From the NCBI RefSeq assembly GCF_012932215.1, contig NZ_CP048788.1, positions 3,162,001 to 3,226,000 of the forward strand: a DNA stretch of 64,000 nucleotides, written 5' to 3'. The notes below the pieces were generated by a model that had not been told where the DNA came from, did no database searches, and was given only the letters and a program-made list of their open reading frames with translations. Source of the stretch: Roseobacter ponti (lineage in GTDB: Bacteria; Pseudomonadota; Alphaproteobacteria; Rhodobacterales; Rhodobacteraceae). Of this stretch, positions 7,676 to 29,695 are shown one piece after another (position 1 is the stretch's first letter; every line of letters begins with the position of its first letter). Position numbers and translations under genes: made by a program.

Positions 7676-8239
7676 ATGTCCTGGACCGACGAACGCGTTG
7701 AAATGCTCAAAAAGATGTGGGGCGAAGGTCAGTCGGCCAGCCAGATCGCAAAAGAGCTCGGCGGGGTGACCCGCAACGCCGTGATCGGCAAAGTGCATCG
7801 CCTGGGGCTCTCCAACCGCGCGACCGCAGCATCGAAACCCGAGGCCAAGGCAAAGGCGGCCCCCAAGGCCGAAGCCCGGCCAAAAGCCGCGACAAAACCG
7901 GCAGAACCGGCAGCCCGGGCCGAAGCAGAACCGGCTGCGCCCAAGCCGATCCCCGCACGCAAGCAGATTATCCCGGCAGGACAGCCGCTGCCGCCGCAGC
8001 CCTCGGCCAACGAAATCAGCCCTGAAGCGCTGGCCAAGGTCTCCGAGATTGAGAAAAAGGCCAAAAAGCTCTCATTGATGGAACTGACCGAGCGGACCTG
8101 CAAATGGCCGGTAGGCGATCCCGCGACAGAGAACTTCTGGTTCTGCGGGTTGCCGGTGCAGCAGGGCAAACCCTATTGCGAAGCACATGTGGGCGTGGCG
8201 TTCCAGCCGATGTCCTCGCGTCGTGACCGTCGCCGCTGA
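7676..8239 (+). CDS. gcrA: Cell cycle regulator GcrA
   Basis: A 187-residue protein starting MSWTDERVEMLKKMWGEG and QSASQIAKELGGVTRNAVIG, the diagnostic DNA-binding N-terminus of GcrA. A low-complexity Ala/Lys/Pro linker (about residues 45-115) joins it to the conserved C-terminal domain with CKWPVGDPATENFWFCG and a YCEAH segment, which contacts RNA polymerase sigma-70 domain 2. In Caulobacter, GcrA activates promoters bearing CcrM-methylated GANTC sites. A GAGGAAG ribosome site precedes the ATG. The linker is longer than in Caulobacter. Confidence 0.95.
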   Translation: MSWTDERVEMLKKMWGEGQSASQIAKELGGVTRNAVIGKVHRLGLSNRATAASKPEAKAKAAPKAEARPKAATKPAEPAARAEAEPAAPKPIPARKQIIPAGQPLPPQPSANEISPEALAKVSEIEKKAKKLSLMELTERTCKWPVGDPATENFWFCGLPVQQGKPYCEAHVGVAFQPMSSRRDRRR

Positions 8240-8356
8240 GGCGGCGCTGCCGCACCTGCCACGTTCCTGATTGTAATTTTTGCCACGCAATGGTGAATTG
8301 CGCGCGGCTGCCGATGCGGTATCAGCAGGCCACAGCAACCGATGACAGGTGTCCTG

Positions 8357-25100: not shown

Positions 25101-27014
25101 TCAGTCAAAAAGCTTTTTGAACAAGCGGTCTTTGATCTGATTTTCCAGCGAGCCGCCTGTATCTCCGCCAAGCTCTTTGAGCAGCTTTTCCTTTGCTTTC
25201 TCTTCCAGTTTATCAGTCTGTTCATCAATCTGCGCATCAAGAACGGCTTCGAAATCGGGCTGGACCGATACATCTGACCAGGGGCCGGTGAAGCGGACCG
25301 GTATTGAAATCCCCTGTCCGCTGTTGGCACGCAACGCAATCGGGGTCGCGGTGTAATCCACCACCTGACGGCCGATGCCGACTGTGCCTTCGCCTGTGGC
25401 ACGGTAGTTTGCCAGTTCCAGCAGCAGGTCCCGGTTCCTCAGCACACCAGATGCGATCGTCCAGGTTCCGCTCAGGCTGTCAAAGACCGTTGTACCGCTG
25501 CCCGTTTCCCCTGACCGCATCAGCCGGTCCAGATCAATCCCCTCAATGGTACCACGTCCGATATTCAGGCTGCCGTCACCGGAGAGGGAATTCATCATCG
25601 CATCAACCGAAGCGCCCGTGGCCAGGAAACTCGTTTTCAGATCACCACCGCCGGTCAGCCGGCTCAGCCCGACCGCATCATCCAGAAGTCCCTGCATTTC
25701 GATACCGGCAGCACTCAGATCTCCGCCCACAGAAAGCCCGCTGCGGTTGTTGATGACAAAGCGCCCGGTGACATTACCGCCGTAGGCCACAACATCGCGA
25801 AGCAAAAAGACCATTCTGGAATTGTCGTTGCTCAGAACGGTCTGTGTCTTTCCGAGGCTGAACCGGCCCAGATCAATGCCTTCTGCGCTCAGCGCGATCT
25901 CACCGTTGAAAGCGGACAGCGCACTGGCATCGATGCGCTCCGTCGGCCAGCTGCCGTTGCCGGAGGGAGCGGCCGTTCCACCGCCGTTCGATGCGCCGCC
26001 ATCCGCGCTGCCGGTGCTGAGATCGCTCAGATCGAGCGGGCCCGCATCCAGACGGGCGTTGATCTGCGGCGTGCCGTTCAGACCGATATCAGCAGCCCCT
26101 GTCAGGCGGTTGCCCCCCAGATCGGCTGAAAGTTCGCGCAGCGCCAGCTGTCTGTCAGCGGTCAGCGTCAGCTGCGTCGTCAGATCAATCCGGCGTCCCA
26201 GTTTGGCGGGCAGAGCGACCGGAGGCAGACCCAGCGCCTGCATAAACGCGCTGGTGTCGCCGGTGACGACACCAAAGCTGCCGGCAACCTCGCCTGCGGT
26301 ATTTGCACGCCCTTCAAGGCTCACGTCGCCGGGCCCTGCACTTATATCAATGCTGACATTGCGGGTCTCACCGGTGATGAAACCTGCAAACCCGTCGATA
26401 GTTGCCGTCACGGTCACCGGTTCCGCCGTCGGACGCAGTACCGCCGCAAAATCGGCAGGGCCTAGCCGGTCCGGCCAGTCAAGTGACAGATCCACGCCGG
26501 AATACGAGATCAGATCGCTGCCTTCGGCGTCATAAATCAGGGTCGCATCGGTGACCTCAAGACGCTGAATGCTGACTGCACGTGCTTCGCGTGCGGGCGA
26601 TGTGCCGGTTTCGATCCGCGCTTCGCCGCTTGCGTCCGTGAACCGCCAGCTTGCCCGCCCGTCAGCTTTCTGTTCGAGGCGGATGGTCGGGCTTTGTGCT
26701 TCTATATTGGTGATCCGGATCTCTCCTCTGAGCAGCGCCAGGGCATCAACCCCGATGGCCGCCCCGGAGGCCTGCAGCATCGGGCCCTGCTCCGCCCAGC
26801 TGGCATTTCCGACCTCCAGCTCTCCCGCCCGCACTCCGAGCACCGGCCAGAGCGTGATACTGACACCGCTGACCGAAACATCCCGCCCGGTGGCCGCACG
26901 CAGCTGGTCAGTGGCAATCTGTGCGATCCGGTCCGCCGGCAGAAACAGCACCGATACGACGAGGACAAGGGCCAGCACCACAACGAGCCCGATCAGCCGG
27001 AAGATCCACTTCAT
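25101..27014 (-). CDS. AsmA-family protein
   Basis: A 637-residue protein with one N-terminal TM helix ([20 protein letters not shown]) and a large periplasmic part. [20 protein letters not shown] near residue 50 is the typical AsmA opening, and the C-terminal portion ([40 protein letters not shown]) is the AsmA-2 domain. Family members are thought to bridge inner and outer membranes and move phospholipids. It ends with an acidic/lysine-rich tail around [17 protein letters not shown]. It converges with kdsA and is divergent from rimO. Confidence 0.9.
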
Positions 27015-28526: not shown

Positions 28527-28769
28527 ATGTCGGATGTACCAAAGATCGCGCAGAAAGGACCCTTTGCCGTCGATGTCACGGCGGGCAGGACCTATTTCTG
28601 GTGCACCTGCGGGCAGTCCTCAAAGCAACCCTTCTGTGACGGGTCGCACAGGGACAGCGCGTTTAATCCGGTGAAATACGTGGCTGAAGCGGATGAAAAG
28701 GTGTTTTTCTGCGGCTGCAAACGCACCGGCAATCCGCCTCTTTGCGATGGCGCACACAACAAACTCTGA
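28527..28769 (+). CDS. CDGSH iron-sulfur domain protein
   Basis: An 80-residue protein with two CDGSH-type cluster motifs: CTCGQSSKQPFCDGSH (about residues 26-41) and CGCKRTGNPPLCDGAH (about 62-77). Each provides three Cys and one His to a redox-active 2Fe-2S cluster, as in mitoNEET and in bacterial tandem CDGSH proteins. The role is probably electron or cluster transfer in the cytosol. It has no membrane anchor. It stands alone between rimO and the LexA-boxed gene. Confidence 0.92.
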   Translation: MSDVPKIAQKGPFAVDVTAGRTYFWCTCGQSSKQPFCDGSHRDSAFNPVKYVAEADEKVFFCGCKRTGNPPLCDGAHNKL

Positions 28770-28809: not shown

Positions 28810-28838
28810 TTGAAAATGTTCCCTATTTGTTCTATATC
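28810..28838 (+). promoter_or_regulatory. SOS promoter with LexA box
   Basis: GTTC-CCTATTT-GTTC at 28818-28832 is an exact match to the alphaproteobacterial LexA operator GTTC-N7-GTTC. It fills the 17-base spacer between TTGAAA (28810-28815) and TATATC (28833-28838), so bound LexA would block the promoter. The start codon of the next gene is 43 bases downstream of the box. Confidence 0.75.
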
Positions 28839-28874
28839 AGTTTCAACACTGACGTACAAACGGAGGAACGGACC

Positions 28875-29282
28875 ATGTCCCTGCAACCACAGTTTCCCGG
28901 TTTTTTTGCTCCCGAGCAGGGTGCTTTGCCTTTGCATGCCCCGCAGCCAGGCAGTGACAAACAGATCCGCTATGCCGAAGCGCTGGCGAAACGCGCAGGC
29001 ATTCCGCTGCCGAAGGGTCTTCTTGCGGACCGCCACCGCCTGTCGGACTGGATCGACGCACATAAACCGCAAAAACCCTCCGGCCGTTTTGCGGATTATC
29101 CGTCGTCCAGACAGGTGGCCTTTGCCGAGCGCATTTCGCGCGTCAGGCGGCGTGCGATTCCGGATGCGTGTTTTCGCGACAAGGCGCTCATGTCGGGCTG
29201 GATCGATGCAAACCGCCCGCCACGGGCAGGTTTGTCGCACCCGGTTGCAGCCCGCCGGCGGGGACCTAGCTCTGATGCATGA
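28875..29282 (+). CDS. Predicted SOS-controlled small protein with two 39-residue repeats
   Basis: A 135-residue basic protein of unknown function. Residues 27-65 and 77-115 are a duplicated unit (SDKQIRYAEALAKR... and SSRQVAFAERISRV...), each ending in S-x-WIDA-x-x-P; 12 of 39 positions are identical. I recall similar units at the ends of some DNA-processing proteins, but a function cannot be assigned from sequence alone. The start MSLQPQFPGFF has a GGAGG ribosome site. A LexA-box promoter lies directly upstream. Its stop overlaps the DCC-family gene (ATGA). Confidence 0.82.
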   Translation: MSLQPQFPGFFAPEQGALPLHAPQPGSDKQIRYAEALAKRAGIPLPKGLLADRHRLSDWIDAHKPQKPSGRFADYPSSRQVAFAERISRVRRRAIPDACFRDKALMSGWIDANRPPRAGLSHPVAARRRGPSSDA

Positions 29283-29695
29283 GCAACTCATCCGACCCCC
29301 GACTGCACGTTCTTTATAACGCCTCCTGCCCGATCTGCAGCCGCGAGATCGACCATTATGCAGCGCTCAGCACCACGCAGTCGCTGCCTCTCGCTTTTGA
29401 CGATCTGAATGAACCGGACACTCTGAAGCGCTGGGGATTATCACGCGAGGTTGCTGCGAAACGGCTGCATGTGCGCAGGGAAGGCGTTGTGATCAGCGGT
29501 TTGCCCGCCTTTATCGCGATCTGGCGCGAAATCCCGCGCTATACCTGGCTTGCGCGGGTGGTGGGTGCCCCTGTCATCCGGACAGCTGCCGGGGCAGTTT
29601 ATGATATGGTGCTCGCACCGCTGCTCTGGCGCTCCGACAGGATGCGGATGCGCCGGAACGGTTGTGACTCCGGGACATGCGCCCCGGAGAAATGA
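29279..29695 (+). CDS. DCC-family thiol-disulfide oxidoreductase-like protein (DUF393)
   Basis: A 138-residue protein with a thioredoxin-like fold. The family motif is seen as VLYNASCPICSREID with Cys at 17 and 20 (most relatives have YDGDCPLC). A hydrophobic middle (LPAFIAIWREIPRYTWLARV) and a basic C-terminus RMRMRRNGCDSGTC follow. The redox partner is unknown. The ATGA overlap with the LexA-boxed gene upstream means that it is probably transcribed in the same damage-inducible unit. It ends directly at the stop of the convergent M48 gene. Confidence 0.87.
   Translation: MSNSSDPRLHVLYNASCPICSREIDHYAALSTTQSLPLAFDDLNEPDTLKRWGLSREVAAKRLHVRREGVVISGLPAFIAIWREIPRYTWLARVVGAPVIRTAAGAVYDMVLAPLLWRSDRMRMRRNGCDSGTCAPEK

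Follow-up and report, generated by a model that had tools for sequence, protein, structure and literature searches.

Organization of the locus

What might a small basic protein built of two short repeats, encoded together with a thiol-disulfide oxidoreductase, do behind a promoter of SOS type in Roseobacter ponti? The locus lies in a window of 64,000 nt (the whole stretch of DNA that was analysed) and has the following features, all on the + strand.

28810-28838, +, promoter with -35 TTGAAA and -10 TATATC and a 17-bp spacer, from the sequence
28810-28815, +, -35 hexamer TTGAAA, from the sequence
28818-28832, +, putative LexA operator GTTCCCTATTTGTTC, an exact match to the GTTC-N7-GTTC box within the promoter spacer
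28833-28838, +, -10 hexamer TATATC, from the sequence
28875-29282, +, gene for the 135-aa basic two-repeat protein (ATG 28875, stop 29280-29282)
28953-29069, +, repeat 1, residues 27-65 (alignments A1 and A2; AlphaFold2)
29103-29219, +, repeat 2, residues 77-115 (alignment A1; AlphaFold2)
29279-29695, +, gene for a DCC-family (DCC1-like) thiol-disulfide oxidoreductase of 138 aa with CPIC (PF04134, E 1.1e-16)

The layout described by the first-pass annotation was borne out: the exact box sits in the spacer of the TTGAAA/TATATC promoter; the 135-residue protein contains two repeats of 39 residues each, whose S-x-WIDA-x-x-P ends read SDWIDAHKP in repeat 1 and SGWIDANRP in repeat 2; and the start codon of the DCC gene shares 4 nt (ATGA) with the end of the repeat gene. 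The DCC product scores 62.5 bits against PF04134, for which the cut-off is 27.8, and its CPIC sequence is a CxxC motif. Directly 5' of the locus is a gene for a CDGSH iron-sulfur protein (28527-28769), which is kept in part of the rimO-linked loci described below.

The box as an SOS operator

The sequence GTTC-N7-GTTC is the alphaproteobacterial LexA operator. On its own, a single exact box has no statistical weight, since the window holds two against 1.54 expected by chance; the second, at 25975 inside an AsmA-like gene, was dismissed as a chance match. The whole genome holds 92 exact boxes, whereas the backwards pattern matches 21 times. When up to one mismatch is allowed, this promoter is the sole match in the genome to the combined pattern TTG-N5-box-TA, and because the backwards control gives four matches, the uniqueness of promoter plus box shows little by itself. 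The real significance of the box lies in its conservation before orthologues.

The regulon of the same genome was sampled at 40 of the 92 box sites, chosen mainly for AT-rich or TG-ending cores, and the regulon obtained is accordingly incomplete. Matching to NCBIfam placed boxes before lexA, recA, uvrA, imuA, a gene for a helicase of the uvrD/pcrA type, and pdeM; downstream genes were named from short N-terminal pieces, which score below full-length cut-offs, but for lexA, recA and uvrA the top match is unambiguous. The distance from box to gene start is 47 nt for lexA, 80 nt for uvrA and 82 nt for recA, the box before recA being in the opposite orientation. The presence of the same box before lexA, recA, uvrA and imuA indicates that GTTC-N7-GTTC is the SOS operator in this genome. 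Exact boxes also stand shortly before an MmcB-like gene (G000:C1:1166438, L074), a radical-SAM gene (G000:C1:16851, L067) and a reading frame that looks like the end of DnaE2 (G000:C1:2797911, L095), all of which we take to be candidate SOS genes. For Dinoroseobacter shibae, too, GTTC-type LexA sites are used (PMC6473078). Thus, the operator of the repeat gene is that of the core SOS genes, in keeping with the LexA/SOS regulon of Alphaproteobacteria; what differs is the target, which belongs to a gene family for which neither Pfam nor NCBIfam has a model.

Conservation and turnover of the box

A family-wide search found a match in 31 of 149 genomes, 30 of them with the small protein and one with a topoisomerase only; the repeat gene is thus patchily distributed, in about 30 of the 149. 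An exact box lies 37-57 nt before the start codon in 28 of these 30 orthologues; of the remaining two, one, whose start is misplaced, also has an exact box, and the other has a box with a single mismatch. A scan of named genomes gave an exact box upstream of the gene in all of the best 80 loci (two with a misassigned start). When both orthologue sets were pooled and duplicates removed, 106 of the 107 distinct upstream regions had the exact box at the promoter and the last had it with one mismatch, counts that are inflated by the relatedness of the orthologues. The reversed control pattern had no match within 200 nt upstream of any of the 30 orthologues. Of 31 aligned orthologue promoters, 27 have TTG at most 9 nt 5' of the box and 25 have TA immediately 3' of it.

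The half-sites fall on an 11-bp grid, on which positions 1 and 2 are occupied in 69 regions, 2 and 3 in 19, and all three in 16, with two ties besides; the position of the promoter is fixed throughout. Such a register is not the mere descent of a fixed sequence. Judged from the sequences, the shifting of the box around a fixed promoter is operator turnover under selection for a working LexA site. The conservation that the first-pass annotation proposed to look for was therefore found, and the LexA-type control that it proposed is supported by the 106 regions together with the boxes before the four SOS genes; the repeat gene is very probably under LexA control.

A chance origin of the box, or its use by another regulator, with the repeat gene outside the SOS response, is very improbable: a window of this size is expected to contain 1.5 such boxes, but neither the retention of the box at the promoter of orthologues, with turnover of its register, nor the same box before lexA, recA and uvrA fits a chance match. 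From the computed gene, box, conservation and turnover we infer that LexA binds this promoter and that DNA damage induces the operon. The operon would then belong to the LexA (SOS) regulon of the Roseobacter group: a LexA repressor at the promoter spacer would block RNA polymerase, and upon damage RecA, activated on single-stranded DNA (ssDNA), would cause LexA to be cleaved and the small protein to be made.

A free-standing topoisomerase tail

Searches of Pfam, NCBIfam and PHROGs gave no credible family for the repeat protein, a sequence search of the PDB found no solved relative, and no second copy of the repeat was found in its own genome. DUF3072 (PF11272), suspected from a similar helix pattern, gained no support, with no Pfam match and an hhalign probability of 0.4 % to one member. 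Viral contigs and phages contained no credible relative, so, judged by those collections, the family is not one of phages. A single scan of genome contigs returned more than 500 related stretches. The protein is small and basic as first described, with a calculated pI of 9.7-11.3 among 30 orthologues. Repeat 2 is the more conserved copy; it bears a basic patch, RVRRR here and RxKRR in most orthologues, and a Cys-Phe pair (C99, F100) that does not vary in alignment A1, copies not linked to rimO included.

The first-pass annotation proposed a search for the repeat in known DNA-processing proteins, and the repeat was found in the C-terminal tails of type IA topoisomerases. The long homologues proved to be type IA topoisomerases with two or three copies of the repeat in their tails; when full-length, they carry both Toprim and Topoisom_bac domains, neither of which was found by Pfam in the small proteins. 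Comparison of the small proteins with the topoisomerase tails by hhalign aligned both repeats in tandem over 91 columns at 26 % identity (probability 99.2 %, E 7e-20), and tblastn reached an annotated topoisomerase with E 6e-6. Most of the distant BLAST matches on plasmids outside the family carry a topoisomerase annotation. A search of genomes across the class gave six matches outside the family, five of them in topoisomerase reading frames and the sixth in a short frame. The repeat protein is homologous to these tails, a detached, free-standing tandem pair of the repeats found at the C-terminus of plasmid-type type IA topoisomerases. It resembles the TopB/TraE-like topoisomerases of plasmids and ICEs in its C-terminal repeats, in tandem over both copies, and differs from them in being free-standing, in having roughly 96-135 aa without a Toprim or catalytic domain, and in being encoded under a conserved SOS box. 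The suggestion that the protein binds DNA or a repair protein gains support insofar as the repeat is the tail module of these enzymes.

Two topoisomerase genes deserve mention. One (G022:C367, 1550-3913; L039) has three tail repeats, the third almost identical to repeat 2 of the small proteins, which suggests exchange or recombination between a topoisomerase tail and the free-standing gene. The other, on a plasmid of Variovorax sp. SRS16 (L107, 2934-3776), encodes among conjugation genes a 280-aa "DNA topoisomerase" that keeps two tail repeats and appears from its sequence to have no Toprim part.

Genomic context

In the Roseobacter/Sulfitobacter/Tateyamaria clade, the repeat gene lies between rimO and an M48 peptidase gene, and in the tree a well supported branch sets these rimO-linked copies apart from the others. 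Among the best 80 loci of the scan, a DCC gene is found 14-85 nt downstream of the repeat gene in 48 of the 65 rimO-linked loci and in none of the 15 unlinked loci. An early impression from the first dozen loci, that DCC linkage is rare, was overturned by these counts, which show it to be common in the rimO-linked clade. The DCC partner claimed by the first-pass annotation is thus real but specific to one lineage. Its absence from the sampled unlinked loci implies that the core unit is the box plus the repeat protein, with DCC outside the core function; in this lineage, the oxidoreductase would be made together with the small protein. Other DCC1-like (PF04134) members differ in this respect, the SOS-type operon being a feature of this lineage only.

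It is distinctly unlikely that the protein is a damage-induced adaptor for a specific partner (a helicase, translesion polymerase or topoisomerase), making no contact with DNA or SSB, whose cysteine or that of its partner is kept reduced by DCC in the Roseobacter clade. Small helical repeats commonly serve protein contacts, repeat 2 holds the invariant Cys-Phe pair, and the DCC gene is directly downstream in those 48 linked loci; yet C99 is equally invariant in the unlinked copies, where none of the 15 loci sampled has DCC, and a protein so positively charged would more likely bind nucleic acid or acidic tails.

Copies of 96-98 aa are encoded on conjugative and other plasmids, divergently from helicase/toprim genes or near repABC, in maintenance and transfer regions beside genes for RadC, SSB or toprim/helicase proteins or repABC. 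Two such plasmid copies (L055 and L056, at about 7825-8300) are oriented divergently from the gene for a large helicase/methyltransferase (strawberry notch), and there the LexA box may act on that operon too.

This setting bears on an alternative in which the detached tail is a moderator of the SOS response or a competitor of topoisomerases, filling the sites on ssDNA or SSB that topoisomerases, RecA or helicases would use and so damping recombination or SOS; plasmid copies would then ease the entry of single-stranded plasmid DNA. Plasmid PsiB has such a damping effect by another route. The position of the short plasmid copies, the composition of the protein (the tail alone, with no catalytic domains) and the fit of LexA control to expression upon entry of ssDNA are consistent with such a role. 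However, the chromosomal rimO-linked clade is stable and its synteny conserved, which suggests a host function, and we consider the moderator role unlikely.

Predicted structure

The structure prediction proposed in the first-pass annotation was carried out with AlphaFold2, which for the 135-aa protein, and also for the 98-aa plasmid form, models two confident helical units with a looser linker between them. Each repeat is predicted to be a short three-helix unit, with helices at residues 28-41, 47-51 and 53-63 in repeat 1 and at 78-91, 97-100 and 103-112 in repeat 2. Foldseek found nothing significant for the models (E > 1). The top structural neighbour of both models is the C-terminal domain of lambda Red-beta, with weak matches (Z 4.2 and 5.2) that span about 50 residues, the Z of 5.2 standing 1.6 above the next entry. 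This domain binds SSB and not DNA (PMC8303780). The repeat protein is similar in size and helix number to the SSB-binding three-helix bundles of Red-beta and lambda Orf, although the Red-beta domain is one domain of an annealase, unlike the repeat protein. Comparison of the repeat protein with the Red-beta domain found no similarity in sequence and gave no support for homology. SSB binding, as suggested by a Red-beta-like fold, is a lead only, the structural match being below a trustworthy level.

Proposed role

From the computed homology, helical repeats and charge we infer a role in binding and repair. The small protein would do in trans what the topoisomerase tail does in cis: it would engage ssDNA itself or the SSB bound to it, where forks have stalled or on incoming plasmid DNA, and thereby shield the ssDNA or recruit repair enzymes. 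That it is an SOS-induced accessory factor of this kind we regard as somewhat probable. A broader proposal is put forward tentatively: the gene may represent a widespread, unnamed SOS family consisting of little more than two topoisomerase-tail repeats, a mobile factor docking on SSB or ssDNA that is shared by chromosomes and conjugative plasmids and steers damaged or incoming ssDNA.

Neither an SOS regulon nor a topoisomerase tail is new in kind. The literature passages searched, which came from outside the key papers on the R. capsulatus and proteobacterial LexA regulons, contained no description of a free-standing, SOS-controlled topoisomerase tail; it is possible that the repeat gene was listed earlier, in those papers, as a hypothetical SOS gene. 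The shifting of the operator around a fixed promoter offers a clean natural example of the turnover of a regulatory site. The unannotated tail of plasmid topoisomerases gains a free-standing, regulated relative in which the binding function of the tail may be tested in isolation, and the likely response of a major group of marine bacteria to DNA damage is extended by an unnamed but widespread gene.
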